From: Stenomitos frigidus ULC18
GTDB lineage: Bacteria > Cyanobacteriota > Cyanobacteriia > Leptolyngbyales > Leptolyngbyaceae
Length of the DNA stretch: 41,726 nt
Assembly (NCBI RefSeq): GCF_003003795.1
Contig: NZ_PVWK01000051.1
Location: 1-41,726, forward strand
Direction: 5' to 3'
This document shows positions 4,932 through 28,909 of this stretch, piece by piece. Made by a program: the position numbers and the translations under genes. The notes beneath the pieces are model-generated. The model made no database searches and was not told the origin of the DNA. It saw nothing but the letters and a program-made list of their open reading frames with translations. Position 1 is the stretch's first letter. The number at the start of each line of letters is the position of its first letter.

Positions 4932-5836
4932 CCAAGAATCGATCAACAGTACCTCAAATGCGAGGGGTTAGCGCTTTTCTAAGTACGTCTACTGAAGCAC
5001 CTGCTTCAACAAATACTATCTCAATCTCTAAAATCCATCTTCCTTCTAGTCAGCCCCGGCGCTACTTCGATCCGGAAAAGTTGCAGCAGCTGACTGACTC
5101 CATCAAACAACACGGCATTTTAGAACCGCTATTGGTACGTCCACTCGAACAAGGGGGCTATGAACTCGTTGCGGGAGAACGACGGTATAGAGCGGCTAAA
5201 GCGAGTGGCTTAGACAATGTTCCTATCACCGTTCGAGAACTATCGGATCAAGAAGCTGTCCAGCTTGCCTTAGTTGAAAACTTGCAGCGTGAGGATCTCA
5301 ATCCTGTTGAAGAAACCGAAGGAGTTCTGGAACTACTGACGCTGACAATGAGCTGTAGCCGAGAGCAGATTTCAGAAGCATTGACCCAGATGGCAACGGC
5401 TCAAAAGAAGGGGATCGAGCTGTCGGGAAACGTTTCCCGACAGGTAGAAGCGATCGCTAATATTCTGGAATCAACAATTAACCTAACCCCAGAGAGCTTC
5501 CGAACTTCCAGGTTACCTTTACTCAATTTACCCTTAGATATTCTTGACGCACTTCGCCAGGGTAAGTTGGAATATACCAAAGCAAGAGCGATTGCCAGAG
5601 TGAAGGATGAGCAGCAACGCCAGCAGCTATTAAAAGATGCGATTGAGCTGTCTCTATCTCTAACTCAAATTAAGCAACAAGCTAAAGGATTAACAGTAGG
5701 CTCAAAAACAGATCAAGCGACAATGAGTGATCGACTGGTATCAATTTCTCGTAAGTTGAAGGGATTGGATGATCCTAAAAAGCAAAAGCGGCTAGAGAAG
5801 CTATTGCAGGATTTAGAATCTCTATTTGAAAGTTAG
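4928..5836 (+). CDS. parB: ParB/RepB/Spo0J-family partition protein
   Basis: 302 residues, starting 4 bp inside the end of parA. The N-terminal CTPase domain has SQPRRYFDPEKL (41-52), the CTP-binding motif GERRYRAA (83-90) and ENLQREDLNPVEE (117-129). A central helix-turn-helix region follows (about 130-215), then a C-terminal helical part likely to dimerise. It should load onto parS DNA, spread as a CTP clamp and be moved by ParA. A perfect 24-bp palindrome lies within its own coding sequence. The presence of parAB means this DNA either is, or came from, a replicon with active segregation. Confidence 0.93.
   Translation: MTKNRSTVPQMRGVSAFLSTSTEAPASTNTISISKIHLPSSQPRRYFDPEKLQQLTDSIKQHGILEPLLVRPLEQGGYELVAGERRYRAAKASGLDNVPITVRELSDQEAVQLALVENLQREDLNPVEETEGVLELLTLTMSCSREQISEALTQMATAQKKGIELSGNVSRQVEAIANILESTINLTPESFRTSRLPLLNLPLDILDALRQGKLEYTKARAIARVKDEQQRQQLLKDAIELSLSLTQIKQQAKGLTVGSKTDQATMSDRLVSISRKLKGLDDPKKQKRLEKLLQDLESLFES
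5420..5443. promoter_or_regulatory. parS: Candidate parS centromere site (perfect palindrome inside parB)
   Basis: A perfect 24-bp inverted repeat centred between 5431 and 5432, with core GGGAAACGTTTCCC extended by CTGTC and GACAG. ParB sites are usually 14-16-bp perfect palindromes near or inside parAB, so position and symmetry fit. The sequence differs from the widespread TGTTTCACGTGAAACA, so it would need a ParB of different specificity. I saw no second copy in the window. Assignment is inference from symmetry and location. Confidence 0.5.
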
Positions 5837-16303: not shown

Positions 16304-16335
16304 GAAAAGCCCGTTAACAGCAGTCTTCATACCTT

Positions 16336-17184
16336 TTACGGTTGCTTCAGCTTGGGTTTACGCCAGAACCGGAGACCCAGCAAGCCAAGACAAACTAAGG
16401 ACGCTAAGACATTGGATGGTTCAGGAACAGCAGCAGCGGCTTGATTTGAACCATACTCAACTAACAGCAGGGATGTGGGATTAGCAAAGAAATGCGAAAG
16501 GCTGCCCTGCACTGAAGCCGATGCAGAGGCCTGCTTACCATCTAAAGCACTATTGAGAGCGGTTTGCCTGGTACTGAACGTAATGCCAGCGCTTTGATCC
16601 ACAGTGAGAGCATTACTGTTACCCGGCGTTCCTAAGCTACCCGCGATCGTTAAAAAGTCCAGGAGGGTCAGGTTGTTTGGATCAGCCGCATCAAATAACC
16701 CCAAGCCGATCGTACCGATCGCAGTAGCCGTCTCAATCCCCGGTTGATCGATCGCAGTCTGTAAGTTTAATGAATTAGTGAAATCAAACGAAAAGGTCTC
16801 TCCATGACCGATTTGAAAGGAGTAGCCCACCACTTGTGCAATACTCTGAGCGAAGCCAAAGTAGCTGTTGCCACTGCCACTCACAACGCTAGAAGACGAG
16901 CCACTCGCCCGTGAACTGGATTGATTTAAGGCATCGGTGAGAAATAGTGCATCGGCATCAGCATTGCTCTTAACCAACCCATCAGGAGCAATGACTTGCG
17001 TCTTGGCATCATGTAAAGCAGTAACATCCAGCGGCAACACACTAAAGTTGTTGACTTCAAAGGTGGCTTCAGAACTGGAGAATGTGGCTGCCCAACCGGG
17101 AACTCCTACCAGAACGCTCGTACCGATCGAGGTCACAAAAGCGGCAACAAGATGACTGACCCGTAAGCGATTATGCATAGACAT
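16336..17184 (-). CDS. PEP-CTERM sorted exoprotein
   Basis: 282 residues from the ATG at 17184, chosen because GAGGA lies about ten bases upstream (a longer TTG frame starts at 17199). It has an N-terminal signal peptide (hydrophobic SHLVAAFVTSIGTSVLVGV, cleavage near PGWAA). The serine/alanine-rich secreted body has no recognised enzymatic domain. The C-terminal sorting signal is VPEPSNVLASLVCLGLLGL followed by RFWRK. PEP-CTERM proteins are processed by exosortase (not in this window) and end up at the outer surface or in extracellular material. Its stop converges with the NTPase gene. The specific role is unknown. Confidence 0.87.
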   Translation of the reverse strand: MSMHNRLRVSHLVAAFVTSIGTSVLVGVPGWAATFSSSEATFEVNNFSVLPLDVTALHDAKTQVIAPDGLVKSNADADALFLTDALNQSSSRASGSSSSVVSGSGNSYFGFAQSIAQVVGYSFQIGHGETFSFDFTNSLNLQTAIDQPGIETATAIGTIGLGLFDAADPNNLTLLDFLTIAGSLGTPGNSNALTVDQSAGITFSTRQTALNSALDGKQASASASVQGSLSHFFANPTSLLLVEYGSNQAAAAVPEPSNVLASLVCLGLLGLRFWRKPKLKQP

Positions 17185-17233
17185 ATTAACTATCCTCAAT
17201 TAACTTAAGCGTCTGACAGACAGGAAAAACACG

Positions 17234-18136
17234 TTACTGAGGCTGTGGTGTAGCCGCACTCGTTTGATTGAATTCCAACACAGCCGGTTTCTTTTTCACT
17301 TGAGCGTCCAAGGGGCGTACTTTCTCGACCAGCTTCACAAACTGGCTATAGTCAGGCACTTTGACATTGGGAATGTAACCCGCATCTTCGACAATGCTTC
17401 CAGTAGCCTCATTCATGGCTTTTTTAATCTGCTCTTGAGCATTGGCATCGACGGTTGGACTGACTAAAACAACACCCGCAGGCACTGGACGACTGGTATG
17501 CAACACGCGAAATTTTGTGGTGCCAAACTGGTTTCGATGCTGCTGAAACTCTTCTTCAGACAACGCTCCGGCGTCGATCGTGCCCTTGCTTAACCACTCC
17601 AAAATTGTTGCTGGAGTCGGTGAGAAGCGGATCTCTTTGAGCGTTAAACCATAGAGATCATAGAGGGGTAAATAATAGCCAGAGGCAGACCCTGGTTGCC
17701 CCAGCGCCACAACCTTATTCGCTAAGTCTGCGATAGTACTGACTGGACTGTCATCGCGGACAAGTAGTACTGAGCGTAGATTCTTCAAACCCTGGAGCGG
17801 GAAGATCGGCGTATATTGATTTTTACCGATCGCGATCGCTGCCAAACCGGGAGGCGCGAAAACAACAGACCAGGTTTTGTTATTAATCTGTTGCACTGCT
17901 TGCAATTCATTCAGTGCTGGTTCAAGTTCAATAATTTTATGAGTTTGCTTGCCTAAGTATTCTTTAAAGTTTTGATATTTGTCTAACGATTGTGCGCCTG
18001 TATCGTAACTGACCAGCCCAACAACCCATTTTTCGACCGGCTCAGAACTGTTTTGGCTACAGCTTGAAAAGGCTAAAGCTGGTAGCAGAAATAATTGAGT
18101 GAGCAGCAGATGACGCAACCGAAGGGGTAACCGCAT
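17234..18136 (-). CDS. PhnD-like phosphonate/phosphate-type periplasmic binding lipoprotein
   Basis: 300 residues from the ATG at 18136. The N-terminus is a lipoprotein-like signal (LRHLLLTQLFLLPALAFSSC, Cys26). The mature part is a type 2 periplasmic-binding fold of the PhnD/phosphonate-binding superfamily: KWVVGLVSYDTGAQ, VFAPPGLAAIA, VSTIADLANKVVALGQPGSASGYYLP and IDAGALSEEEF. Family members bind phosphonate, phosphite or phosphate-like anions, and some are sensor-coupled. No ABC permease or ATPase lies beside it, so it may be an orphan or a sensing lipoprotein. It is divergent from the bacteriocin precursor array. The upstream stretch holds the near-palindrome CCTTAACTGGCAGTTTAAGG at 18312-18331. 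Confidence 0.82.
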   Translation of the reverse strand: MRLPLRLRHLLLTQLFLLPALAFSSCSQNSSEPVEKWVVGLVSYDTGAQSLDKYQNFKEYLGKQTHKIIELEPALNELQAVQQINNKTWSVVFAPPGLAAIAIGKNQYTPIFPLQGLKNLRSVLLVRDDSPVSTIADLANKVVALGQPGSASGYYLPLYDLYGLTLKEIRFSPTPATILEWLSKGTIDAGALSEEEFQQHRNQFGTTKFRVLHTSRPVPAGVVLVSPTVDANAQEQIKKAMNEATGSIVEDAGYIPNVKVPDYSQFVKLVEKVRPLDAQVKKKPAVLEFNQTSAATPQPQ

Positions 18137-18420
18137 ACATTTAATCACAAAAAGCGAATGACGAAAATCGGAACACGGTTCAGTTAATGGACATGCTGCT
18201 GTATCAGGTGAACAGGCCCGACAGCAACGCTGGACTGGGTAAGAGAGCAGACACAAGCGTTGAGCTAACTCAAGGTCAGTTGAGCGCGGTTGCCACTGCG
18301 AGTGCTTGATACCTTAACTGGCAGTTTAAGGGCATTGACAACTGAAATGAACCTTGGTTGCAAAAATATATCATCCATATCGGCTGATCAGCGCTCTTTT
18401 CAGGCAAGAAAGTGTAGAAC

Positions 18421-18545
18421 CTGAACTTTTCTGAACTATTCTCAATTCCTCTCACATCCTCCTTGTCTTGCCATTTATTTAACTCCTGGATTTACCTCAG
18501 TTTTCCTAGATTGTGGGCAGCCTGAAACGCTCATATAGTAGGGAC
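18421..18545 (+). promoter_or_regulatory. Precursor promoter P1 with 10-bp phased repeats
   Basis: Distal direct repeats lie at exact 10-bp spacing: CTGAACTTTT (18421), CTGAACTATT (18431), CTCAATTCCT (18441) and CTCACATCCT (18451). A proximal trio follows: CTGGATTTAC (18486), CTCAGTTTTC (18496), CTAGATTGTG (18506). The last overlaps the -35 box TTGTGG (18511-18516). After a 17-bp spacer comes TATAGT (18534-18539). The arrangement is that of an activator of the OmpR/PhoB type bound next to RNA polymerase. It drives precursors 1 and 2. Confidence 0.7.
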
Positions 18546-18620
18546 ATCAACTGAATCAAGCGGTTCACCAAACCACTCCAGATTCAACCTCTACTCAACC
18601 ACAACCTCAGGAGAACCATC

Positions 18621-18845
18621 ATGTCAGACAATCTTGCTCAAGTTCAAGACACCAACATCGAACTGTCGGATGACGAATTAGAAGGCGTTGCTGGTGGTGT
18701 TGCCCTTTCCATCGCTGATGCTACTGGCGTCGCCTTCGGTAAGAACTTCGCCGCTACCGTGAACAGCTCTGATACCCAAACCATCTCAGTACCCAACTTC
18801 AACCTTGCTACGGGTCAAGCACACTCTGCGTCGATCGCTGGCTAG
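18621..18845 (+). CDS. Double-glycine-leader bacteriocin-like precursor 1
   Basis: 74 residues preceded by AGGAGAACC. The 26-residue leader has MSDN start, the amphipathic ELSDDELEGV and the cleavage motif VAGG, the class cut by C39-peptidase ABC transporters such as the one at 28910. The predicted 48-residue core starts VALSIADATG and ends HSASIAG; it has no cysteine, is rich in Ser/Thr/Ala/Asn and is nearly the same in six paralogues. The leader ending resembles the tail of Nif11/nitrile-hydratase-type leaders but lacks their long folded part. No modifying enzyme is evident in the locus. Bacteriocin is a family-level guess; it could also be a secreted signal or structural peptide. Confidence 0.88.
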   Translation: MSDNLAQVQDTNIELSDDELEGVAGGVALSIADATGVAFGKNFAATVNSSDTQTISVPNFNLATGQAHSASIAG

Positions 18846-18915
18846 ACCGCCCCTCTTTCACTTTTCCCAGTCCCTACTTCATCTCAACCCACACACAACC
18901 CTTAGGAGAACTACC

Positions 18916-19140
18916 ATGTCAGACAAACTTGCTCAAGCTCAAGACACCAGCATCGAACTGTCGGAACAGGATTTAGATAGCGTCGCTGGTGGCGTTGCTC
19001 TCTCTATCGCTGATGCTACTGGCGTCGCGTTCGGTAAGAACTTTGCGGCTACTGTGAACAGCTCTGACACACAAACCATCTCGGTGCCTAACTTTAACTT
19101 AGCTACGGGTCAAGCACACTCCGCTTCGATCGCTGGCTAA
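18916..19140 (+). CDS. Double-glycine-leader precursor 2
   Basis: 74 residues. The ATG at 18916 has AGGAGAACTACC upstream and matches the paralogues; an open extension to 18805 overlaps precursor 1 and is not used. The leader is of the second type (MSDKLAQAQDTSIELSEQDLDSVAGG broken into MSDKL..., SEQDLDS, VAGG). The core is identical to that of precursor 1. It is 70 bp behind precursor 1 and presumably on the same transcript. Confidence 0.88.
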   Translation: MSDKLAQAQDTSIELSEQDLDSVAGGVALSIADATGVAFGKNFAATVNSSDTQTISVPNFNLATGQAHSASIAG

Positions 19141-19172
19141 ATCCTTGCAATGACAAACGTATACCTCGAAGT

Positions 19173-19197
19173 CACCCTTGTCATTTTGGCAAGGGTG
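19173..19197 (+). other. Hairpin after precursor 2
   Basis: CACCCTTG (19173-19180) pairs with CAAGGGTG (19190-19197) around a 9-nt loop, with no T run. It could stabilise the precursor mRNA end or reduce readthrough into the 28-codon frame that follows. Confidence 0.45.
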
Positions 19198-19228
19198 TAT
19201 TCCTTCACAACACCTCTGGGAGGTCTTT

Positions 19229-19315
19229 ATGCTGACTTTTATCGCTTTTTTGAGCCTCTATGGCCTGACTCACACGCTCTTTCTCAAGGCACTCTTTCAC
19301 ACACCGAACGCTTAA
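19229..19315 (+). CDS. Possible 28-aa hydrophobic peptide
   Basis: A short frame with a strong ribosome site (GGGAGGT, seven bases from ATG) encodes MLTFIAFLSLYGLTHTLFLK plus eight residues, one likely membrane-spanning helix. It lies inside unit 1 of the precursor array, between the second precursor and the unit terminator, and is absent from units 2 and 3. Small membrane peptides next to bacteriocin genes can be immunity factors, but this is unproved and the frame may be fortuitous. Confidence 0.35.
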   Translation: MLTFIAFLSLYGLTHTLFLKALFHTPNA

Positions 19316-19345
19316 ATTGAATGACAACTCATGCTTGCATTATCA

Positions 19346-19376
19346 AAAACCCTCGCCCCTTGGTGAGGGTTTTGTT
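19346..19376 (+). terminator. Rho-independent terminator of unit 1
   Basis: AAAACCCTC and GAGGGTTTT form a strong GC-centred stem, extended inside by CC/GG pairs, followed by TTTTGTTTT. The same element recurs after unit 2. Confidence 0.85.
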
Positions 19377-19400
19377 TTGGCATAGAAATCAAAGGCGCAC

Positions 19401-19515
19401 CTTAACTTTCCTGAACTCCTCTTAGTTTTGCAAAGCCTTAAATCTGTTTTAACTCCTGGATTTACCTCAGTTTTCCTAGATTGTGGGCAGCCTGAAACGC
19501 TCCTATAGTAGGGAC
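19401..19515 (+). promoter_or_regulatory. Precursor promoter P2 with 10-bp phased repeats
   Basis: Distal repeats are CTTAACTTTC (19401), CTGAACTCCT (19411) and CTTAGTTTTG (19421). The proximal trio starts at 19456 and is identical to that of P1. The core promoter is TTGTGG (19481-19486), 17 bp, TATAGT (19504-19509). From 19450 to the start codon this copy is nearly identical to P1, so the unit was duplicated together with its promoter. Confidence 0.7.
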
Positions 19516-19590
19516 ATCAACTGAATCAAGCGGTTCACCAAACCACTCCCGATTCAACCGCTACTTAACTACAACCTCAGGAGAAGCATC

Positions 19591-19815
19591 ATGTCAGACA
19601 ATCTTGTACAAGCTCAAGTCAGCAACATCGAACTGTCGGATGACGAATTAGAAGGTGTTGCTGGTGGTGTTGCCCTTTCCATCGCTGATGCCACTGGCGT
19701 TGCGTTTGGTAAGAACTTTGCCGCTACCGTCAACAGCTCCGATACACAAAGCATCTCGGTACCCAACTTCAACCTTGCTACCGGTCAAGCACACTCCGCT
19801 TCGATCTCTGGCTAG
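19591..19815 (+). CDS. Double-glycine-leader precursor 3
   Basis: 74 residues, first gene of unit 2, with AGGAGAAGC ahead of the ATG. The leader is of the first type (SDDELEGVAGG), with the variation LVQAQVSN upstream. The core differs from precursor 1 at two conservative sites (DTQS for DTQT, SISG for SIAG). Same export logic as the other paralogues. Confidence 0.88.
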   Translation: MSDNLVQAQVSNIELSDDELEGVAGGVALSIADATGVAFGKNFAATVNSSDTQSISVPNFNLATGQAHSASISG

Positions 19816-19882
19816 ACCTCGCTTCTTGAACCGCTTCAATCCTTACTTCACCCCAATTCACAACATAACCAGGAGAACCATC

Positions 19883-20107
19883 ATGTCAGACAAATTTGTT
19901 CAATCCCAAGACACCAGCATCGAATTGTCCGAGCACGAGCTAGACGGCGTTGCTGGTGGTGTTGCCCTTTCCATCGCTGATGCCACTGGCGTCGCCTTCG
20001 GTAAGAACTTCGCCGCTACCGTCAACAGCTCCGATACCCAAACCATCTCAGTACCCAACTTCAACCTTGCTACGGGTCAAGCACACTCTGCGTCGATCGC
20101 TGGCTAA
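19883..20107 (+). CDS. Double-glycine-leader precursor 4
   Basis: 74 residues from the ATG at 19883 (AGGAGAACC upstream); an open extension to 19655 runs through precursor 3 in another frame and is rejected. The leader is MSDKFVQSQ... SEHELDGVAGG and the core is identical to that of precursors 1 and 2. Second gene of unit 2. Confidence 0.88.
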   Translation: MSDKFVQSQDTSIELSEHELDGVAGGVALSIADATGVAFGKNFAATVNSSDTQTISVPNFNLATGQAHSASIAG

Positions 20108-20155
20108 GCCGACTCATCCATAAACAAGTGCTTCAAACGAATGCTTGCAGTATCA

Positions 20156-20186
20156 AAAACCCTCGCCCATTGGTGAGGGTTTTGCT
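20156..20186 (+). terminator. Rho-independent terminator of unit 2
   Basis: Same AAAACCCTC/GAGGGTTTT stem as at 19346, followed by a T-rich tail. It separates unit 2 from promoter P3. Confidence 0.85.
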
Positions 20187-20210
20187 TTGGTATAGGGGGC
20201 AAAGGCGCAC

Positions 20211-20325
20211 CTTAACTTTTCTGAACTCCTCTTAGTTTTGCAAAGCCTTAAATCTGATTTAACTCCTGGATTTACCTCAGTTTTCCTAGATTGTGAGCAG
20301 CCTGAAACGCTCCTATAGTAAGGAC
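20211..20325 (+). promoter_or_regulatory. Precursor promoter P3 with 10-bp phased repeats
   Basis: Distal repeats are CTTAACTTTT (20211), CTGAACTCCT (20221) and CTTAGTTTTG (20231). The proximal trio starts at 20266. The core promoter is TTGTGA (20291-20296), 17 bp, TATAGT (20314-20319). Spacing matches P2 exactly. Confidence 0.7.
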
Positions 20326-20400
20326 ATCAACTGAATCAAGCGGTTCACCCAACCACTGCCGATTCAACCTCTACTTAACTACAACCTCAGGAGAACCATC

Positions 20401-20622
20401 ATGTCAGACAAGCTTCAAACTCAAGTAAGCAACATCGAACTGTCAGATGACGAATTAGAAGGCGTTGCCGGTGGCGTTGCCCTCTCCATCGCTGATGCAA
20501 CCGGTACTGCGTTCGGTAAGAACTTTGCGGCTACCGTCAACAGCTCTGATACACAAACCATCTCGGTGCCTAACTTCAACCTCGCTACGGGTCAGGCTCA
20601 TTCCGCTTCGATCGCTGGCTAG
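20401..20622 (+). CDS. Double-glycine-leader precursor 5
   Basis: 73 residues, first gene of unit 3, AGGAGAACC ahead of the ATG. The leader is one residue shorter (MSDKLQTQVSN... SDDELEGVAGG). The 48-residue core has a single change relative to precursor 1 (ATGTAFGK for ATGVAFGK). Confidence 0.88.
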   Translation: MSDKLQTQVSNIELSDDELEGVAGGVALSIADATGTAFGKNFAATVNSSDTQTISVPNFNLATGQAHSASIAG

Positions 20623-20708
20623 ACCTTAGCACTCGTTTCACTACTCTCTCAAAGCTTTTTCCAAACACAATCCAAAACACAATCCAAAACACAATCAGGA
20701 GAACTACC

Positions 20709-20933
20709 ATGTCAGACAAACTTGCTCAAACTCAAGACACCAGCATTGAACTTTCGGAACAGGATTTAGATAGCGTCGCTGGTGGCGTTGCTCTCTCTAT
20801 CGCTGATGCCACTGGCGTTGCGTTTGGTAAGAACTTCGCGGCTACCGTCAACAGCTCTGATACACAAAGCATCTCGGTGCCTAACTTCAACCTTGCTACC
20901 GGTCAAGCTCACTCCGCATCGATCGCTGGCTAG
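20709..20933 (+). CDS. Double-glycine-leader precursor 6
   Basis: 74 residues, second gene of unit 3, AGGAGAACTACC ahead of the ATG. The leader is almost that of precursor 2 (SEQDLDSVAGG). The core differs from precursor 1 only at DTQS. A short repeated string (CCAAAACACAAT) lies just upstream. Confidence 0.88.
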   Translation: MSDKLAQTQDTSIELSEQDLDSVAGGVALSIADATGVAFGKNFAATVNSSDTQSISVPNFNLATGQAHSASIAG

Positions 20934-20948
20934 AACCTACTTAAGCAA

Positions 20949-20985
20949 GCGGGTTTCTCTTCTGGAGTGACAGGAAGAAACTCGC
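20949..20985 (+). other. Hairpin between precursors 6 and 7
   Basis: GCGGGTTTC (20949-20957) pairs, with one mismatch, with GAAACTCGC (20977-20985). There is no T tract, so it may be an attenuator allowing partial readthrough to precursor 7, for which no own promoter was seen. Confidence 0.45.
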
Positions 20986-21049
20986 TGACTACTTTCAGAG
21001 AACCGCAATCAAGAAACTTAATCCCTTACACAACTACAGGAGAATGATC

Positions 21050-21292
21050 ATGTCAGACAACCTCGTTCAATCCCAAGATACCAGCATCGAGCTTTCCGAA
21101 GAAGATTTGGAAGCGGTCGCTGGAGGCGTTGCTGGAGTCACTATCGATATTGGTACAGTAGCTCAGGGCAGTGAACTGGCCTTCACAGATACAAAAGCCT
21201 TCACAGGTGCTTTCTCAAATGGCTTTGCGTCTGTTGGCGCTGGCATTGGTGCAGGTGTGGCAGTGAGCGTCAACAAGCCATCTCTCCCCTAG
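21050..21292 (+). CDS. Double-glycine-leader precursor 7, divergent core
   Basis: 80 residues from the ATG at 21050, which is ten bases from AGGAGA and matches the MSDN start of the family; an ATG at 21044 is too close to the ribosome site. The leader (LVQSQDTS, SEEDLEAVAGG) is clearly paralogous. The 54-residue core is unrelated to the others: it begins VAGVTIDIGT, is glycine/alanine-rich (VGAGIGAGVAVSV) and ends KPSLP. The glycine-zipper-like stretch could insert in membranes, as in class IIb or two-peptide bacteriocins. Confidence 0.87.
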   Translation: MSDNLVQSQDTSIELSEEDLEAVAGGVAGVTIDIGTVAQGSELAFTDTKAFTGAFSNGFASVGAGIGAGVAVSVNKPSLP

Positions 21293-21662
21293 GTTCGAAT
21301 TAGCCACGCTGTTCAAGCTACAGTCTCTGCTTGCCTTAAAGGGACATCGATTCACCAACTCAACTATCCAGGCTGGCGTGTGAGTACGTGTCCATTACTA
21401 ATGAAGCATTGCTGGCGAGTCAACCACATCAATCGACTGAAGAGCCAGGTTAACGATCGCTAACCTGGCTCGACCCGTGGCACATTTCTGGCAAAGGGTT
21501 TGCTCCGCCCAACAAATTAGATGAGGCCAGATCTGGTACAATTTTCATCACGCGAATAAAATTGATCTACATCGCTTCATGTTTTGATCTAGTCCACGCC
21601 AATCAATCCCAATTGTCCGTTGATCGACTCACCCCGTGTACGCTACCCACCCACCACGCACC
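21293..21662. other. Intergenic stretch with hairpin after the array
   Basis: 370 bp. GAGCCAGGTTA (21442-21452) and TAACCTGGCTC (21461-21471) form a perfect 11-bp stem around a HIP1-like loop, probably the array's end hairpin though lacking a T tract. A 10-bp palindrome CCAGATCTGG is at 21527-21536. No promoter with the phased repeats occurs before the SOD gene. Confidence 0.55.
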
Positions 21663-22235
21663 ATGAAAAAAATCGCACCTCTTTTGCTTTTAGCTCTTGG
21701 TACGCTTTTAGCGGTGACACTGATTTTCTTGCCGCATCAAGCCAATGCCTCCGATCGCGCTTTGCGTGCCCAAGTCAACCTTCAGGGCGCACCTGACTCC
21801 GGCATCTCTGGACATGTGCTGTTCATCCAAACCCGCGAAGGCATTTTGCCCACCGTCCAGATCATCGCCGAAGTCACAGGTCTGCCGCCAAACACGCTAC
21901 ACGGCTTTCATATCCATGAGAATGGAACATGCGAGCCTAGCTTTGCAGCCGCAGGCGGGCACTACGATCCAGGTCCAAATGGCAACTCCGATCCCGATGC
22001 CAATCATCCCTTTCATATGGGTGATCTTCCAAACTTGCGAGCGAATGATCAGGGTATAGCGAAGGTCAAACATACCACAAGCCGTATCACGCTCTCTGCT
22101 GGTCCACTCAGCCTCTTTGACGACAATGGCAGTGCTATCATTGTCCATGCAAATGAAGACCGGGGGACAACGGGCGTCACTGGTGGTGCCGGAGGGTCAC
22201 GGATTGCTTGCGGAGTCGTTGAAGCAAACGGGTGA
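21663..22235 (+). CDS. sodC: Cu/Zn superoxide dismutase
   Basis: 190 residues from the ATG at 21663, which gives a clean signal peptide (MKKIAPLLLLALGTLLAVT, cleavage near ANA-S). The mature protein has the Cu/Zn SOD signature HGFHIHENGTCEP (copper His ligands and disulfide Cys), AGGHYDPGP and HPFHMGDLPNL (zinc and bridging ligands), IIVHANEDRG and the C-terminal SRIACGVV with the partner cysteine. It disproportionates superoxide in the periplasm. Cu/Zn SOD is uncommon in cyanobacteria, which mostly use Fe, Mn or Ni forms. Its place in the bacteriocin locus may be accidental. Confidence 0.93.
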   Translation: MKKIAPLLLLALGTLLAVTLIFLPHQANASDRALRAQVNLQGAPDSGISGHVLFIQTREGILPTVQIIAEVTGLPPNTLHGFHIHENGTCEPSFAAAGGHYDPGPNGNSDPDANHPFHMGDLPNLRANDQGIAKVKHTTSRITLSAGPLSLFDDNGSAIIVHANEDRGTTGVTGGAGGSRIACGVVEANG

Positions 22236-22261
22236 AGGAGCACAGTTCTCTGATTTTCTGC

Positions 22262-22387
22262 CGCGATGGATGACTTTTTCCAATCCTTTAGCGTTAATCA
22301 TCTGGCTAACCCATGAATCCAGGGAGGAATTTCAACAAATTCTTCCCTGGATTCATGGGATCTACAAAACTTAAGTCATCCATCGCG
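22262..22387. repeat. Nested inverted repeats (MITE-like or bidirectional terminator)
   Basis: An outer perfect 15-bp pair (CGCGATGGATGACTT at 22262-22276; complement at 22373-22387) encloses a long inner hairpin. In the inner one, CCCATGAATCCAGGGA (22310-22325) pairs with 22344-22359, with near-complementary loop-proximal bases. The whole is 126 bp, between the convergent SOD and metallopeptidase genes. Inner hairpin: plausible terminator for both. Outer pair: unlike a terminator, more like the ends of a miniature element. No target duplication was seen. Confidence 0.65.
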
Positions 22388-22395
22388 TCGTACGT

Positions 22396-23592
22396 TTATA
22401 GACCCGTGATGAGTACAGAGTAAGCGGCTTGAATTAGCTGGACTCCTGCGTCTGAGGCCAGTTCTTCCAGGGTTAACTGTGTGAGCGCGATCGTGACTAA
22501 GGCGTCTTGCCGAGGCTGATTAGGTTCACATCTGTACTGCACATCAAAGCGTTCTAAATTCCTTGCTGCCGCCTGCACCAGTGCCCCTAACACCTGAAAG
22601 GCACCCTCTGAAAGTGGCGGCTGTCCCCGATAGTTTTGCAACCGTCCGCCTTCCCGGTAAGGAGGAAAGGCTTCCAGACCGACAAACCGCAAGAACCAGT
22701 CAGCATGATAGCGTCCGGCTGCGGCGACGATGCCCCAATAGTCAGCAATGAGTTCATCCAACAGATGATTGCGCATAGAGCCCAGCACGCGGTAGGTAAA
22801 GTAATGGGTACACTCATGCTCTAGACGAACGATCGACGAGAGGCGTTGCCAGTCTGTCTCTGGCAACCCCATAGCAGACGCTGACACAGCACTATAGGGA
22901 CCATCACTAAGAATGATGAATCGATCTTGATAGAGTGCTTTTTGCGGTGCCACACGCTGGAATTCTGCCACCCAATCACTCTCAGAACAAGCAGTCGGGT
23001 TGGTCGTTTCCCACTGTTGGCGATACTGACGAATCCGATCCCAGTTGTTGAAACCGGAAACGATACAGGCTCCCATCGAGTCAAGTACTGGCTTTGGTTC
23101 ATTGCGTAGTGCCAGCGCCTGCACCAGGGCAACAAAATCCTCCCGCTGGCTGACCATCAGGACTGGGATTGCTCCTGCCAGGCTCTCATGAATCACCAGC
23201 TCTAGTTGGTCTGGTTGTTGCAAAACCAAACCTGTTGCTTCAATTAGTTCAGTCGGAGAAATACCTTTGCGTGTAGCAGCCCGATAGGCATCCGTTTGGC
23301 TGATGCCCGCCTGAATAGGAAACTGTAGCTGTACGAGTCGTTGTTTCAATGCCTCAAACGCGCCAATTTCTTGCGCGATCGCAGCATATTGCTGCCAGGT
23401 CGCCACATGCGATTCTGGCTCTAGTGGTAGCGTTAGAGCCTGTTCCAGATGCTGTTGAGCAAACGCATGATCGCTATAGACAAGCAGTTCTTCTACTTGT
23501 CCAACGACAGCCCCATAGGCTGCCAGTATCTCAGCCCTCCGTGCCCGTCTGGTGGTATCCAAGGGTGCTATCCCAATTAACGACCAGGCCAC
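22396..23592 (-). CDS. Putative zinc metallopeptidase-like protein (HECTH)
   Basis: 398 residues from a GTG that overlaps the end of the MinD-like gene by 16 bp, so the two are translationally coupled. The only recognisable motif is LEHECTHYFTYR, an HExxH zinc site at 259-263, followed by LLDELIADYWG (Glu280 and Asp284), a plausible third ligand as in gluzincins. The N-terminal 200 residues are helical and of unknown fold. There is no signal peptide or membrane helix, so it is cytoplasmic. Whether it is an active protease is unproved. With its ATPase partner inside a peptide-export locus, a role in maturing, immunity against or clearing the peptides is possible but inferred. Confidence 0.6.
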   Translation of the reverse strand: MAWSLIGIAPLDTTRRARRAEILAAYGAVVGQVEELLVYSDHAFAQQHLEQALTLPLEPESHVATWQQYAAIAQEIGAFEALKQRLVQLQFPIQAGISQTDAYRAATRKGISPTELIEATGLVLQQPDQLELVIHESLAGAIPVLMVSQREDFVALVQALALRNEPKPVLDSMGACIVSGFNNWDRIRQYRQQWETTNPTACSESDWVAEFQRVAPQKALYQDRFIILSDGPYSAVSASAMGLPETDWQRLSSIVRLEHECTHYFTYRVLGSMRNHLLDELIADYWGIVAAAGRYHADWFLRFVGLEAFPPYREGGRLQNYRGQPPLSEGAFQVLGALVQAAARNLERFDVQYRCEPNQPRQDALVTIALTQLTLEELASDAGVQLIQAAYSVLITGL

Positions 23593-24392
23593 CGGAGTTT
23601 AGACAACACAGAAGGAGTTGCTTGCGGTTTCTTATCTTCTTGCAACACTTGATTCGCTACCTTTTGCAGTTCCTGAGTGAGTAAATGATCAGGGTGACGC
23701 AAGCAAAAAAGGTCACTACTGGCAAGCTTCATCATTTCATCGCAGTTAGGCAACACGCCCGCAACAGGCGAATTGTAGGTTTTTTCAACCAGTTGCCGCA
23801 CCTCGTCAAAATTCAAACTTTGTAAAACTCTGTTCACCAACAGCAACATCTTCGGCACCTTCAATTTCCGGGCTAACTCTACAGTGACGGCAGTGCCTTG
23901 AAAATCCTGACGATCGGGCCGCAGAATGATAACGAGCGTGTTTGAAATGGTGATGGAAAGCAAGGTCTCTTCGTTAATCCCAGGATGAGTATCAATAAAG
24001 AGATAGTCTAAATTGAGACTGCGAATCAGTTGCCGAAACCCATCGTTCAGCAGACGCACGTTATAACCATCCTTCAAAACACGAGCAATTTCACCGACTT
24101 TAACGCTAGAAGGAATCAGAAAAATATTGCCCTTTGCCTGTTTAATGCTTTCAGGGCTGACATCGTAAGCACAGTCTTCGATCTTACAACGACCCCACAA
24201 ATAATCATTTAAAGTGAGCTTAATCTTCTCAACATTCAGACCAAACAGAATATGAATACCGGGTGATTGAATATCGGTATCAACGATCCCCACTCGCTTT
24301 CCCATGCCAGCTACGATCGCTGCTAAGTTAGCTGTTGTGTTTGATTTACCAGTGCCGCCTCGAAAGGAGTGAATAGACACAATCTGGGACAT
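23577..24392 (-). CDS. MinD/ParA-family ATPase (RGGTGKS type)
   Basis: 271 residues from the ATG at 24392, with GAGGTG upstream. A deviant Walker A, FRGGTGKSNTTAN (10-22), has Arg11 where MinD/ParA proteins carry the signature lysine; Lys16 is retained. The switch I/A' segment VGIVDTDIQSPGIH and Walker B YLFIDTHPG are intact. No C-terminal amphipathic MinD membrane helix is evident. The family is common in cyanobacteria beside genes of unknown role. It is the first gene of a two-gene operon with the HECTH protein. It may position a complex or act as a switch; cell-division MinD is unlikely because minC and minE are absent. Confidence 0.85.
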   Translation of the reverse strand: MSQIVSIHSFRGGTGKSNTTANLAAIVAGMGKRVGIVDTDIQSPGIHILFGLNVEKIKLTLNDYLWGRCKIEDCAYDVSPESIKQAKGNIFLIPSSVKVGEIARVLKDGYNVRLLNDGFRQLIRSLNLDYLFIDTHPGINEETLLSITISNTLVIILRPDRQDFQGTAVTVELARKLKVPKMLLLVNRVLQSLNFDEVRQLVEKTYNSPVAGVLPNCDEMMKLASSDLFCLRHPDHLLTQELQKVANQVLQEDKKPQATPSVLSKLRWPGR

Positions 24393-24740
24393 GACGCACC
24401 TCAATGTAAAAAGTGATGGAGTTCTGCAAAAAAGAATTCAACCTGCCACATCCTGCATGGTCATAATCAATTCCATCAGAAGCAATGCTCTTGAGCGGAA
24501 ACCTGTTTGGCTTATATCATTTTTGGCTTGATTTTACTAGTAGCACTGCGCAGGCAACCATTGCTGCAATCACTATAAGAAATATCAACCAGTATGACCA
24601 TACAGGTAACCTAAGTAAAATTCAGGAATGGCATCGATCAGGATGTGTTTTGGTCAGGCGAAAGGATGCTTTGAATCCTCAGCAGGACTACACACGATCG
24701 CCGCTTCATTCCAGCAAACGATCGCGGTTCTGAGCATTAC
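24393..24740. other. Intergenic stretch upstream of the MinD-like gene
   Basis: About 350 bp between the MinD-like start and promoter P4. It should hold the minus-strand promoter of the MinD/HECTH operon. An open frame at 24485-24733 lacks a ribosome site and any family resemblance. Nothing else was recognised. Confidence 0.4.
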
Positions 24741-24866
24741 CTGAATTTTTCTGAATTTTTCTGAGTAATCGTCGTTTTTCTCCTTTGTCTTCACTCAACT
24801 CAACTCCTGGATTTAGCTCACAACTTCTAGATTGTGAGCAAGCTGATTCAGGCATACAGTGACGGC
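24741..24866 (+). promoter_or_regulatory. Promoter P4 with 10-bp phased repeats (small membrane protein)
   Basis: Distal repeats are CTGAATTTTT (24741), CTGAATTTTT (24751) and CTGAGTAATC (24761). The proximal trio is CTGGATTTAG (24807), CTCACAACTT (24817) and CTAGATTGTG (24827). The core promoter is TTGTGA (24832-24837), 17 bp, TACAGT (24855-24860). Register relative to -35 equals that of P1-P3 although surrounding sequence differs, showing that the repeats are conserved by function. It points to the 50-codon gene at 25024. Confidence 0.65.
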
Positions 24867-25023
24867 AGCAAGGGAATGAAGCCTTAAGCATATTGTTACC
24901 TTGAGACCTTAAGAACGGTTACTAAAGATAGCCTAAAAAAGACGGCCAGTCTCTTATTTACATTGCTTTAGTTGACCTAAACGAACCTTTTAAAAAGTAA
25001 AAATTCTAGCTTGGGAGGCACCT

Positions 25024-25176
25024 ATGAACCGTCGAGTACATTGGAAAGAACTACTGCTACACCTCATTCTTTGGTTAGCGACTGAGCTCATTCTGAATTT
25101 GACTGAACTTAGTGATTTATCAAATTACAGCGAGTTTGTTTTACAGCAAAATAGGCTTGAACTCCGAAAAGCATAA
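25024..25176 (+). CDS. Small membrane protein (50 aa), co-regulated with precursors
   Basis: 50 residues with a good ribosome site (GGGAGGCACCT before ATG). It has a basic start (MNRRVHWKE), one hydrophobic helix (LLLHLILWLATELILNL, about 10-26) and a charged tail (YSEFVLQQNRLELRKA). It resembles short single-helix cyanobacterial hypothetical proteins with a WLxxEIxLNL-like core. It follows promoter P4, so it belongs to the same regulon as the precursors. It has no double-glycine motif, so it is not a precursor; immunity or exporter accessory protein are possible roles by inference. Confidence 0.6.
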   Translation: MNRRVHWKELLLHLILWLATELILNLTELSDLSNYSEFVLQQNRLELRKA

Positions 25177-25726
25177 ATAGTGCATCAATAGGAGCTAAAT
25201 AAGATTTGTTAATTTTTGCTTAGCAAGGTAAAAATGCTTGAGTCAGAAGCCAGAATGAATTGTCGGTGAGAGAGAAGCGCGATCAGGCAAACTTTTTTGC
25301 CAAGAACCTCAATTTTCCTGAATTTTTCTATATTTACATTATTTTGGGGATTCCCTATAGTACTGGATACAACCAATACTAATCGGTTGAGCATTCTAGT
25401 TTCTTCTCATTCATGCTTTGATGAGAGTTCATGCTTCATTACAAACGCTTCAAAACTGACGAAAAAAGGCTTTAATCACTATGGGCCAAATTTTCGTTCC
25501 TGATCGCACAAGCAGCATGGTTGTCCGATCGGTGCTGTTAGTAGTGAGGGCAGCGTGTGAAGAACGCAGCCATGTCATACTCCCTTTGCCTGTTGTAGAA
25601 GCGTGCCCTTGGCGCATTTTTGATCGTTCTTCATCACCCGTATGGGTGGCAGCGTTCAAAGAAGCAGAATTCGTTTCCTGATTGAGTCCCACCCGATTCC
25701 CGTTACCAAGACCAGGAGGAGCATCT
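25177..25726. other. Leader region before precursor 8
   Basis: 550 bp holding promoter P5 and a leader of roughly 360 nt up to precursor 8. A frame at 25481-25681 has no ribosome site and no family likeness. CACCCGTATGGGTG at 25636-25649 is a short hairpin. The long leader could carry RNA regulation, but no known riboswitch was recognised. Confidence 0.4.
25308..25367 (+). promoter_or_regulatory. Promoter P5 with 10-bp phased repeats (precursor 8)
   Basis: One trio only: CTCAATTTTC (25308), CTGAATTTTT (25318), CTATATTTAC (25328). The last overlaps the -35 box TTTACA (25333-25338) in exactly the register of P1-P4. After 17 bp comes TATAGT (25356-25361). TTTACATT here also fits an RpaB HLR1 half-site. 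Confidence 0.6.
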
Positions 25727-25909
25727 ATGTCTACCGATCGTGCCAGCGACAATCAAGCACACCCCAGCAGAACGCTAGAGAATGTCACCGCAGCCACCGG
25801 GGCAACCTCAACTGCTGAAACAGAAATATCGGATGAAACCTTAGAAGCCGTAGCTGGCGGTGGTGTCGCCAAGCCGCCGTTGCATCAGCCTCTGGTTGGT
25901 CATGGTTGA
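25727..25909 (+). CDS. Double-glycine-leader precursor 8, very short core
   Basis: 60 residues from the ATG at 25727, eight bases after AGGAGGA; an upstream TTG frame start is rejected. The leader is long (45 residues), Thr/Ala-rich (TAATGATSTAETEIS) and ends ISDETLEAVAGG. The predicted core is only 15 residues: GVAKPPLHQPLVGHG, proline- and histidine-rich, without cysteine. It is nearest to the exporter genes and, with P5, is the only precursor with a separate long leader mRNA. A metal-binding or signalling peptide is conceivable. Confidence 0.75.
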   Translation: MSTDRASDNQAHPSRTLENVTAATGATSTAETEISDETLEAVAGGGVAKPPLHQPLVGHG

Positions 25910-26198
25910 GCCATCGCTGCTGCTGTGACGCATTGTGTCAGCGTCTCATCATCGTTAACGGCTGCTCCATAGACAGCATTTTCCCAATGAATCGTCGCAG
26001 TCTTGTGCCTGCAGATTGCTGGTGAATTGTTTGATCTCTTTGCTTTAACGATCGCTTCACTGCTTTGACGCACTGTAAAACACCCCCTGCAGCCTGTGGC
26101 GCTTCTGAAGCTTGTCTGCACAAAATCCTTGCCTCGTCGGTCGTTCGCAGCAACTATGCATCCTCGTGTCGTGAGTAAACCATAAGGCGTTATTGGTT

Positions 26199-27299
26199 AT
26201 GACAGAAGTTCTACTTCAAGAATTAAGTAACAGCGACATTAACTGGATGATCGCTACCGGCAAGCGTGAGGAAATTGCAGCAGGCGAGGTCTTGCTTCAG
26301 CAAAATGAAGCCGCTCATACCCTCTATCTCCTTCTAGAAGGAGCCTTAACCATTGGGATTCCCCAGGCGGAAAGCGATCCGTTAGCCCTTGCCTTCTCAG
26401 TGTTGGAAGGTCGGGAAACCACGGAACGAGAGATTGCTCGCATCGCCAGCGGTGAACTGGTGGGTGAAGAATGCTTTCTCGATTCCCGTGCGCCTTTTAC
26501 CATTGTTCGGGCATTGGAAGATTCACTCGTTTTAGCGATTCCACAAAGTCAAATCGTCGCCAAACTGCAACAGGATGTGAGTTTTGCCGCTCATTTGTAC
26601 CGCGCGATCGCCGTTTTGCTTTCTAACCGACTGCGGTCTGTCGTGAACCAGCTTGGCTATAGCCGCTTTGCCCAAAGCGCTCAAATTCGAGAAGTCCTCT
26701 TTGTGTTTGGCGAATTGAGCGATAGCGATATTGATTGGATTATTGCGGCTGGGCAGCGGGAAGAGATCCCGGCGGGCAAAATCCTGATCCACAAGGGTCG
26801 GCCGGTGGACGGGCTGTACATCTTGCTCAATGGCACCATGACGGTTTCGATCTCAGACAATGACAACAATCCCCTGGCGATCGTCTTTGCCTCCCTGGAC
26901 AGCAGTGAAGACCCCGGTCGTGAAATTGCTCGCTTGCTGCGCGGCGATATTGCCGGTGAAATGCCCTTTGTGGACGATCGCCCACCTGAAACCACCATTA
27001 AAGCGCACGAAGATTCTCTGGTCTTGATGGTTCCCAAACAGCAGTTAGTGGTCAAGCTGCATCAAGATGAGGTATTTGCCTCTCACTTTTATCGAGTCAT
27101 TTCAATCTTGCTCCTCAATCGCTTGCGTGATATCAGCAGCCGATTGGGCTATGGCCGACGCACTTACGACGAAGGTCAGGCGTTGGATAACAACATCGAA
27201 TATGAAGAAGAATTAGATTTCAATGTGCTGGATCACGTCTCCTTAGCAGGCGCACGTTTTGATTGGTTGCTGAAGTGCCTCAACGTGAAAGGAGCGTGA
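26199..27299 (+). CDS. Tandem cyclic-nucleotide-binding-fold protein
   Basis: 366 residues from the ATG at 26199. Two cNMP-binding (Crp-like) beta-barrel domains occupy about 1-140 and 165-310; both begin with the matching segment LSxSDIxWxIAxGxREEI. A 50-residue acidic tail follows. No HTH is attached, so it is not a Crp-type regulator. In both domains the phosphate-binding-cassette arginine of canonical cAMP sites appears replaced (GEECFLDSRAPFTIVRA and GEMPFVDDRPPETTIKA carry Pro in that column), suggesting a structural role or another ligand. Genes of this type accompany NHLM exporters in cyanobacteria. It precedes the HlyD gene by about 125 bp. Confidence 0.85.
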   Translation: MTEVLLQELSNSDINWMIATGKREEIAAGEVLLQQNEAAHTLYLLLEGALTIGIPQAESDPLALAFSVLEGRETTEREIARIASGELVGEECFLDSRAPFTIVRALEDSLVLAIPQSQIVAKLQQDVSFAAHLYRAIAVLLSNRLRSVVNQLGYSRFAQSAQIREVLFVFGELSDSDIDWIIAAGQREEIPAGKILIHKGRPVDGLYILLNGTMTVSISDNDNNPLAIVFASLDSSEDPGREIARLLRGDIAGEMPFVDDRPPETTIKAHEDSLVLMVPKQQLVVKLHQDEVFASHFYRVISILLLNRLRDISSRLGYGRRTYDEGQALDNNIEYEEELDFNVLDHVSLAGARFDWLLKCLNVKGA

Positions 27300-27423: not shown

Positions 27424-28863
27424 ATGTTAGACCAAAAGCGTGAACTCTTCAGGAAAGAACCCCTGGCGCGTTTATCGTCTCCAGAGCAGTTAGACCAATT
27501 GATGCAAGTGGTTGGGCCGAAATCCTGGCTGCCCTTAGCGGCTTTGGGTGGACTCACCTTTGTGGCGATCGTCTGGAGCATTGTCGGACGGCTACCCATT
27601 ACTGTGACGGGGCAAGGCGTATTGATTCGGCCTCAAAAAGTGGTGTTGGTGCAAACACCCGGTGCCGGACAGATCTTGACCATCAATGTGAAAGCGGGAG
27701 ATGCGGTGAAGCAGGGTGAGACGCTGGCCACCCTCGATCCCGATCCGGAGCTGAAGAAGCAACTACAGCAAGAACTCAGCAAACTTTCAGAGCTGCAAGA
27801 TCAAGATCGACAAGCCAATGCCCTCCAGGGGCAGCGAATGGAGCGGGAAGGACAGTCCAGTACCCAACAGCGTCAGACCCTGCTCAAAAGCCTACAGAAT
27901 GCGCAAAACCTGACTCCAGTGTTGCGAAACAAAGACCTGGAATCACTGCGCGCCGATCGCCAAAGCTTGCAGCAGCGGGTGCAAGCGCTGCAAACTCTAC
28001 TGCCGGTACTACAGGATCGGGTCAAGAAACGGCAGCAAATCTTTGAGGAAGGTGCCCTGTCTAGCGAAGTGGTGCTACAGGCACAGCAGGAATACCTGAA
28101 TAACCAGGCAACGCTGGCCGATGCCCAGTCTCAATTGAAGCGACTGGATACCAAAGAAGCAGAGGCAGAGCGTCAGTATCTCAGTAGCTTGACCAACATG
28201 TCTGGTATCAGCGCCCAATTACGGGCCTTAGATAGCCAGGAAACGGGTTTAGCGCAGCAAAACCTGGAGACGACGAGCAGTCGCCAGAATCGGCTGCAAG
28301 AAGTCAAACGCAGCATCGCTCGCCTGGAAGTAGAAATCAAGGAAAAGAGCAAAATTCTCAGCGGGTACACCGGCAGAGTCGAAGAAATTGCGGTGAAGCC
28401 GGGGCAAGTCATTGCAGCGGGCAGCACTATCGCCACGCTCAATGCCGAAACGCCCTCTGACAAGTTGGTCAGCGTGACCTACTTTACGGTGCAAGATGGC
28501 AAGCGCATTAAGGCTGGCATGCCCGTACAGGTCACCCCCAGCACCGTCAAACGTGAGCGCTTTGGTGGCGTTCTGGGCTCAGTGACTAGTGTGTCATCCC
28601 TACCTGCTACGCCTCAAGGTGCGTTGGTACTGATTGGCAATGAAGAAACGGTGAAAAACCTGATGTCGGGCGATCGCACGATCGAAGTGTTCACCCAGCT
28701 TCAAGAAGATCCCACCACGGAGAGCGGCTACAAATGGTCGTCTTCAAAGGGCCCAGCACAAAAGCTTTCGGCTGCCACCACCACCACTGTGCGGGTCAAA
28801 GTCGGGGAGCAAAGCCCGATTAGCTACATCATTCCCCTGCTGAAGTCAGTCACTGATAGTTGA
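27424..28863 (+). CDS. NHLM bacteriocin system secretion protein (HlyD-type adaptor)
   Basis: 479 residues. A short cytoplasmic N-terminus precedes one membrane helix (SWLPLAALGGLTFVAIVWSIV, about 34-54). The first half of a lipoyl domain (VQTPGAGQILTINVKAGDAVKQGETLATLDP) follows. A long glutamine-rich coiled-coil hairpin spans about 105-320. The second lipoyl half (GYTGRVEEIAVKPGQVIAAGSTIATL) and a beta-barrel end it. It should bridge the ABC transporters to an outer-membrane TolC-like channel, which is not encoded here. The unit order with the next two genes is that of NHLM/NHLP export systems. Confidence 0.92.
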   Translation: MLDQKRELFRKEPLARLSSPEQLDQLMQVVGPKSWLPLAALGGLTFVAIVWSIVGRLPITVTGQGVLIRPQKVVLVQTPGAGQILTINVKAGDAVKQGETLATLDPDPELKKQLQQELSKLSELQDQDRQANALQGQRMEREGQSSTQQRQTLLKSLQNAQNLTPVLRNKDLESLRADRQSLQQRVQALQTLLPVLQDRVKKRQQIFEEGALSSEVVLQAQQEYLNNQATLADAQSQLKRLDTKEAEAERQYLSSLTNMSGISAQLRALDSQETGLAQQNLETTSSRQNRLQEVKRSIARLEVEIKEKSKILSGYTGRVEEIAVKPGQVIAAGSTIATLNAETPSDKLVSVTYFTVQDGKRIKAGMPVQVTPSTVKRERFGGVLGSVTSVSSLPATPQGALVLIGNEETVKNLMSGDRTIEVFTQLQEDPTTESGYKWSSSKGPAQKLSAATTTTVRVKVGEQSPISYIIPLLKSVTDS

Positions 28864-28909
28864 TTCGCCTTCGTGATCGCCCCATCCTCCTCGTAGATCC
28901 ATCAGTCAC

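Follow-up and report, generated by a model that had tools for sequence, protein, structure and literature searches.

MalT is a STAND activator that undergoes ATP-driven oligomerisation, binds directly repeated boxes and carries a C-terminal LuxR-type helix-turn-helix (HTH), and tandem head-to-tail sites with a one-turn period are typical of the OmpR/PhoB family of response regulators. SARPs such as AfsR of Streptomyces use direct repeats 11 or 22 bp apart, which lie near or over the -35 element or in the spacer between -10 and -35 (PMC10936776). The main operator of PimR-type SARP-LAL regulators is composed of three direct repeats of the heptamer CGGCAAG with 4-bp spacers, to which monomers bind cooperatively, and the second operator has a 10-bp period (7 + 3) (PMC5930380). 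Among cyanobacterial bacteriocin clusters, those of group V encode a bimodular CAP_ED protein, an HlyD and, besides a C39 ABC transporter, a further transporter of the ABC type (PMC3140520). Here we describe a cluster with this gene set in contig NZ_PVWK01000051.1 of Stenomitos frigidus ULC18 (hereafter the window, the whole analysed stretch of 41,726 bases, which is contig C48 of a 7.0-Mb genome in 167 contigs). Its five promoters, P1 to P5, carry, in strong or degenerate form, a trio element in which the unit CTGAAYTTTY (RAAARTTCAG on the other strand) occurs three times head to tail at intervals of one helical turn. We propose that the trio is probably a transcription-factor operator of cyanobacterial HTH-NB-ARC (STAND) proteins, which would act as SARP/MalT-like regulators.

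From MalT we borrow the oligomerisation model for the trio, although the boxes of MalT and the position and type of its HTH are different. With AfsR and the SARPs, the putative system shares a candidate N-terminal DNA-binding part combined with an NB-ARC-type NOD domain, one-turn direct repeats and a link to antimicrobial control; it differs in its period of 10 instead of 11 bp, a small HTH resembling sigma region 4, the absence of a SARP domain match, arrays of at least three units, the cyanobacterial host, and a DNA binding that is predicted. PimR has in common the three direct repeats and the 10-bp period of the second operator, but not the heptamer with 4-bp spacers nor the architecture of the regulator. 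The export genes of the window, which encode a protein with two CAP_ED domains, HlyD, a C39 ABC transporter and a second ABC transporter, resemble the group V set, for which the excerpt of PMC3140520 describes no promoter element. A literature search over titles and abstracts returned no description of this element, nor of any operator to which an NB-ARC protein of cyanobacteria binds; the exact arrays were not found in the literature searched, and little on the control of bacteriocins in cyanobacteria turned up.

The trio and a clade of HTH-NB-ARC (STAND) genes

The pattern CTNAAYTTTYCTGAAYTNYTCT, written from the five window sites, occurs without mismatch only at the five window promoters in the 7.0-Mb genome. 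With up to two mismatches it is found at eight places (reversed pattern, none), two of which lie outside the window, at C42:32215 and C164:16265 (C, G and L numbers are our handles for contigs, genomes and loci). The site on C42 precedes the gene of a 460-aa protein (C42:30795-32174, minus strand; the C42 protein) that has an NB-ARC domain and an N-terminus homologous to that of the window protein encoded at 12704-16303. The other one (CTAAATTTTTCTAGATTTTTCTAGATT, L273, G000:C164:16265-16286; two mismatches) stands before a 313-aa pentapeptide-repeat/carboxypeptidase-regulatory-like protein and is not in the list of sites of the model R1 described below. Among 58 relatives the pattern recurs, and 13 fetched loci (own C42 counted twice, as L014 and L017) encode a C42-type protein beside the site.

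To avoid a choice of loci based on the motif, we compared the C42 protein with 242 genomes of the class, scored the best six candidates per genome and analysed the best 30 loci. Half of these (15/30) have an upstream trio with a score of at least 20 of 24, and the other 15 score 16 or less. In the carrier promoters, at least three units AAAGTTCAGS end 2-4 bp before a TANACT-like -10 element (TATGCT in one case), the array filling the spacer between -35 and -10, and the trio lies 37-56 bp before the start codon of the STAND gene (36-56 bp over the clade as a whole). The triplet CTG is invariant in all three units of 14 STAND arrays, and the clade spans several families. A motif-free test of 16 loci that had initially been sorted as short gave a mean best lag-10 identity of 16.4/20, compared to 8.1-13.1 at other lags, with lag 10 top or tied in 13 of the 16; the mean lag-10 identity is 8.9 in 14 long WD40-type genes.

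The set was extended to 67 loci, namely the 30 of the survey, 20 from ten chosen genomes, 12 taken by place, two found by motif (L042, L049), two of the own genome (L057, L058) and the window gene; 22 are carriers, 44 are non-carriers and one has no upstream DNA. In the tree of 61 rows (six rows without HTH were dropped), a branch supported at 100/100 separates the 22 carriers from the 39 non-carriers. An autoregulatory site at every HTH-STAND gene was considered and rejected, with 39 of the 61 rows lacking the trio; the trio-less rows include the short L198 and L210 and two of four own-genome genes found by their N-terminus, besides the window gene. A divergent NfeD-like gene is present in only 10 of the 16 short loci, and hence the element follows the STAND gene, not NfeD.

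A sequence-only model, R1, was then trained on 14 STAND promoters, all taken from genomes other than this one and none of them a bacteriocin promoter. In the own genome it ranks the C42 site first (29.4 bits), followed by P4 (20.6), P1 (17.4) and P5 (14.3), then by four sites at background level (12.9, 12.6, 12.5 and 12.2) and by P2 at rank nine (11.3); P3 reaches 8.9 bits in the window and is absent from the genome-wide list. Outside the C42 gene's own promoter, the best copies of the element in the genome are those of the bacteriocin cluster. Because P1 and P4 are related, these top ranks amount to two or three independent agreements, not four. We give the R1 search and the motif-free lag test more weight than the count of CTNAAYTTTYCTGAAYTNYTCT, because neither uses the five sites. 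When R1 was run over the 58 relatives, the top 13 matches all fell at STAND promoters, six of which are outside the training set. At E<=0.1 most relatives with any site have 1-5, and in many of them a STAND promoter comes top.

Further R1 targets are single or paired cases. They comprise sites before an XRE-HTH and AAA_35 gene in G030 and before a like open reading frame (ORF) in G021, a site before a 788-aa HTH-STAND-TPR gene in G040, where by reading a divergent small ORF resembles the NfeD-like one, and a site in G022 near a small ORF that by reading is like that of the NfeD operon. In Leptolyngbyaceae RU_5_1 (which we equate with G014), a 22.4-bit trio (L264:6843-6869, on G014:C146) precedes an nSTAND1-WD40 gene, and its third word lies over a TTGGCA -35 element, as at P5.

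Among bacteriocin loci, R1 gave one match of at least 14 bits (14.7, L130) in 729 kb of 41 NHLP loci, and none at E<=10 in 299 kb of 45 CTB loci. Both a general CTB promoter feature and a general NHLP operon feature were tried and rejected: none of 30 CTB loci exceeds 22/27 by plain word score (the best, L073, L077 and L086, reach 20-22), and of 42 NHLP loci only RU_5_1 scored 25, followed by L111 and L117 (22/27) and by L135, L141, L143 and L145 (21). In L111 and L117, both from Fischerella, a weak trio-like stretch on the minus strand lies 441 and 465 bp before the cyclic nucleotide (cNMP) gene, at a place that resembles the RU_5_1 site.

Word sets at the five promoters and their counterpart in RU_5_1

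All five promoters lie on the plus strand and have a set of CT-words that starts 48 bp before the -10 element, with its third word over the -35 element and a 17-bp spacer; the -10 element is TATAGT at P1, P2, P3 and P5 and TACAGT at P4. At P1 a strong upstream trio (CTGAACTTTT CTGAACTATT CTCAATTCCT; 18421-18450, lag-10 identity 15/20) stands before a weak word set (18486-18515) over the -35 TTGTGG, with the -10 element at 18534-18539. P2 and P3 have degenerate upstream trios (19401-19430, 10/20; 20211-20240, 11/20), and their weak word sets over -35 (19456-19485 and 20266-20295) are identical in sequence to that of P1. The upstream trio of P4 (CTGAATTTTT CTGAATTTTT CTGAGTAATC; 24741-24770) is the strongest by lag-10 identity (16/20). 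At P5 a strong trio (CTCAATTTTC CTGAATTTTT CTATATTTAC; 25308-25337, 14/20) sits directly over the -35 TTTACA, with the -10 element at 25356-25361. The trios of P1, P4 and P5 are the only places in the window with a lag-10 identity of at least 14/20. The distance to -10 is 113, 103, 103 and 114 bp for the upstream trios of P1 to P4 and 48 bp for the P5 trio, and the distances of P1, P2 and P3 differ by one turn. On reading the sequence, no promoter in the manner of P5 was seen directly after the upstream trio of P1 or P4.

The initial annotation had described trios at 10-bp steps at five promoters, a word set in one register over each -35 with a 17-bp spacer, and P4 and P5 as lying in otherwise different sequence, so that duplication alone would not explain the sharing. 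The starts (18421, 19401, 20211, 24741 and 25308) and the steps are exact, but the strength of the trios is unequal. The third word overlaps -35 at all five, but the -35 sets of P1 to P3 are one duplicated sequence with 11/20, a value reached by 0.7% of the 30-mers of the window, and the supposed set of P4 (24807-24836; 5/20) is at chance level and not a trio; the R1 search of the window found none of the four P1-P4 sets at E<=10. A strong trio over -35 is thus confined to P5. A perfect inverted repeat, GCTCACAA-N8-TTGTGAGC at 24816-24839, overlaps the P4 set and lies over its -35; it is weaker in P1 to P3 and is possibly a second operator.

The difference in sequence did not hold. P2 and P3 are copies of P1 at 94-96%, P4 is a diverged copy, 68% identical to P1 along 143 bp (E 2.8e-6), and P5 aligns to the P1 core without gaps, with 20/30 identical positions in the trio. 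With P4 at 68% and P5 alignable, duplication explains part of the sharing; conservation of the word itself is seen in RU_5_1. There the P5 trio is identical at 28/30 positions, both differences being T/C at one unit position, and the DNA just upstream aligns poorly, which argues that the P5 word is kept for itself. The P5-type promoter of RU_5_1 retains TTTACA and TATAGTACTG; downstream of it come the orthologue of the double-glycine peptide and a cNMP protein whose alignment shows 82% identity.

The RU_5_1 contig of the P5-type operon also carries orthologues of the HTH-STAND-WD40 protein (~80-85% identical), the PhnD-like protein, the transporters, a Tll0287/HAMP protein and two kinases. The HTH-STAND-WD40 orthologue (L209, G014:C315:2607-6190) reads in two frames, by a frameshift or an assembly error. 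The block from the STAND gene to the PhnD-like gene (window 12704-18256) lies on opposite sides of the operon in the window and in G014:C315 (L209, L089), as after a circular permutation or translocation. RU_5_1 holds a STAND-clade gene with an array of its own (L193).

Candidate regulators and competing explanations

The C42 protein has Pfam matches to NB-ARC (34.6 bits, cut-off 23.5) and NACHT (34.0 bits, cut-off 26.7), and 5 of 20 N-termini match Sigma70_r4_2 weakly (best E 1.6e-4). A SARP domain (ODB and BTA) is absent from its listed Pfam matches at E<=0.001 and also from the top 25 of the 32 matches obtained at E<=10. A search of a viral collection found no further relatives, and the only PDB entries returned by a profile search were a designed repeat (E 0.0084), which has no separate stretch, and a tRNA nucleotidyltransferase (E 0.3). 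Against the AfsR model NF053617, the NB-ARC region of the window protein scores weakly (23.9 bits, cut-off 1430).

The same element marks the promoters of an HTH-NB-ARC clade, which points to this clade as the source of the regulator more than to any response regulator. We infer that a STAND protein binds to the trio; the cognate one is most likely the C42 protein, and the HTH-STAND-WD40 protein of the window is a second candidate regulator, as a partner or an alternative. The protein would bind via its N-terminal HTH of the sigma-region-4 type, each 10-bp unit taking one protomer and all protomers lying on the same face of the helix, after oligomerising upon switch-on of NB-ARC as in MalT or AfsR. 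Cooperative head-to-tail binding by the STAND oligomer is proposed because SARPs and PimR use direct repeats one turn apart or a three-repeat operator. The array in the -35/-10 spacer of the STAND gene would serve autoregulation. At the bacteriocin promoters, the trio is oriented opposite to transcription when compared to the STAND promoters; since it also overlaps -35 at P5 and lies far upstream (~103-114 bp before -10) at P1 to P4, activation, or a release of hindrance of RNA polymerase, is likely here. The targets would be the precursors, the P5 peptide and the small P4 gene.

More tentatively, and with somewhat less than even confidence, cyanobacterial NB-ARC (NLR-like) proteins with a sigma-4-like HTH might be ligand-gated transcription switches that oligomerise on 10-bp-phased operators upon sensing a cue, that regulate their own genes as well as NfeD-like membrane operons and further STAND genes, and that in some lineages are wired to bacteriocin release, linking an immune-receptor-like sensor to chemical attack. 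Cyanobacterial genomes contain many NB-ARC/STAND proteins; if the trio is indeed an operator of STAND proteins, this class gains a DNA site, a function as transcription switch and a small testable regulon, and the switching of a bacteriocin cluster in cyanobacteria is explained.

Several observations weigh against the assignment of the trio to STAND regulators. The N-terminal HTH is based on weak Pfam matches (15.7 bits for the window protein, cut-off 24.1), the N-terminus of the C42 protein taken alone has no Pfam match, and a single-sequence structure model of the N-terminus is unusable (pLDDT 49.7). For R1, the training words were selected in register for resembling the bacteriocin word. 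Strong R1 matches occur without a STAND gene, at G052:C7 (26.5 bits) and in tandem repeats of G042, and one small genome, G038, has 16 equal matches of 23.2 bits spread across it, an operator-like repeat family. P1 to P4 are related copies and little more than one independent case, with P2 and P3 matching R1 weakly. The window HTH-STAND-WD40 gene has no trio upstream (score 12 of 24), and a conserved element in front of a gene may be bound by a different regulator. Finally, the searches of other CTB and NHLP clusters did not turn up the trio, and for this reason its presence at the window cluster looks like local recruitment.

The site might instead be bound by a response regulator of the OmpR/PhoB family, be it SphR, RpaB or a different one, with the STAND gene as merely another target, which we consider unlikely. 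A tandem head-to-tail arrangement with a one-turn period is typical of this family, the spacing at the five promoters fits, a strong trio over -35 is confined to P5, and the first words of P2 and P3 (CTTAACTT) fit a Pho-box unit. The number of good R1 sites per genome (1-5 in most) is nevertheless low, unlike that expected of a global regulator. The initial annotation had assigned all five promoters to one response regulator, with SphR and RpaB as candidates, had credited cyanobacterial Pho boxes with about this period, and had read the neighbouring PhnD-like lipoprotein as a hint of phosphate limitation. What remains of this is a shared, helically phased element that probably serves one regulator; SphR and RpaB are unsupported. 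The quoted Pho box, YTTAAYYW NNN, has an 11-bp period (PMC9846622), whereas the window steps are 10 bp; both consist of three tandem T-rich octamers at promoters, but the TTAA core and the period of SphR sites were not found here. SphR was rejected on the genome search, with no Pho-box triple at up to two mismatches, and on the upstream regions of six PstS-type genes, which have no trio (best score 15 of 24); one of these genes, on C111, has a Pho-box-like stretch instead (20 of 24, lag-11 14/20). The HLR1 sites of RpaB are likewise direct repeats with a period of ~10 bp, but TTACA, present in 4 of 7 HLR1 sites inspected (PMC6331805), occurs among the five window promoters only at the P5 -35. 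SphR is thus disfavoured by the tests, and RpaB, judged by sequence only, appears to fit poorly; on this reading the phosphate and high-light hypothesis would be corrected ahead of bench work. The PhnD-like lipoprotein beside the cluster is real and is linked to it in RU_5_1 too, but says nothing on the regulator. In Nodularia, one of two bacteriocin clusters, a CTB operon, is induced in phosphorus starvation, a point in favour of a response regulator, and according to the excerpt its authors found no Synechocystis-like P-box (PMC9846622). By analogy with this result, phosphorus starvation could act through the STAND route.

It is similarly improbable, in our judgement, that the cluster is regulated, via a family-wide type of site, by the HTH-STAND-WD40 protein encoded beside it (12704-16303) instead of the C42 protein. 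In two genera this protein's gene and the operon are linked, even with the block on the other side, and the two proteins share homology at the N-terminus. The HTH-STAND-WD40 protein belongs, however, to the other clade of the tree, in which the trio is present in 0/39 members, itself included, and such genes are common (six matches to the C42 protein in the own genome, from the best six of 43 candidates), so that the linkage may be due to chance.

We regard as very unlikely that the phased T-tracts merely cause intrinsic DNA curvature or form an UP-like element with no specific protein. Each unit does have a T-run at one-turn spacing, and the arrays lie upstream of or over -35; but letters other than T are kept as well, among them the CTG of the 14 STAND arrays, the two differences between P5 and RU_5_1 are both T/C, and the arrays track one protein clade, not promoters in general, with the orientation reversed between STAND and bacteriocin promoters. 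Mere duplication of an ancestral promoter with functionless words, to which the copies P2, P3 and P4 of P1 and the alignable P5 would point, is hardly credible with the P5 trio kept in another genus next to poorly conserved DNA, and with bacteriocin sites taking ranks 2-4 when the whole genome is searched with a model built from other genomes.

Gene content of the window

The NF038167 model (CTB family) has seven matches in the genome, all in the window, four of them over the curated cut-off and three below. They correspond to seven similar CTB-type precursor genes, from 18621 to 21292; the numbered ones below are on the plus strand. Precursor 1 (18621-18845; 34.1 bits, cut-off 32) is paired under P1 with precursor 2 (18916-19140; 33.9 bits). 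Under P2, precursor 3 (19591-19815; 29.3 bits, below cut-off, supported by alignment) has its partner at 19883-20107. Precursor 5 (20401-20622; NF038167 match and alignment) is under P3 and is followed by those at 20709-20933 and 21050-21292. Downstream of P4, a 50-aa ORF with a hydrophobic stretch (25024-25176, plus strand) has no NCBIfam match. Downstream of P5, a 60-aa double-glycine peptide (ISDETLEAVAGG; 25727-25909, plus strand), identified by translation and alignment, has its RU_5_1 orthologue downstream of the same promoter.

The export genes follow on the plus strand. A double cNMP-binding, bacteriocin transport-associated protein (26193-27299; TIGR03896, 357.8 bits) precedes the NHLP HlyD, the C39-peptidase ABC transporter and the second ABC transporter (27424-34046; TIGR03794, TIGR03796 and TIGR03797 above cut-offs). 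On the other side of the precursors lie the PhnD-like substrate-binding lipoprotein (17234-18256, minus strand; PF12974 116 bits, above cut-off, with TIGR01098/PhnD below cut-off) and the HTH-NB-ARC-WD40 protein (12704-16303, plus strand), which is recognised by its WD40 repeats and by N-terminal homology to the C42 protein. The window also contains ParB-like (4928-5836) and ParA-like (23577-24404) genes, and a plasmid is possible. Between the first and second precursor pairs, a 28-aa hydrophobic ORF is located at 19229-19315.

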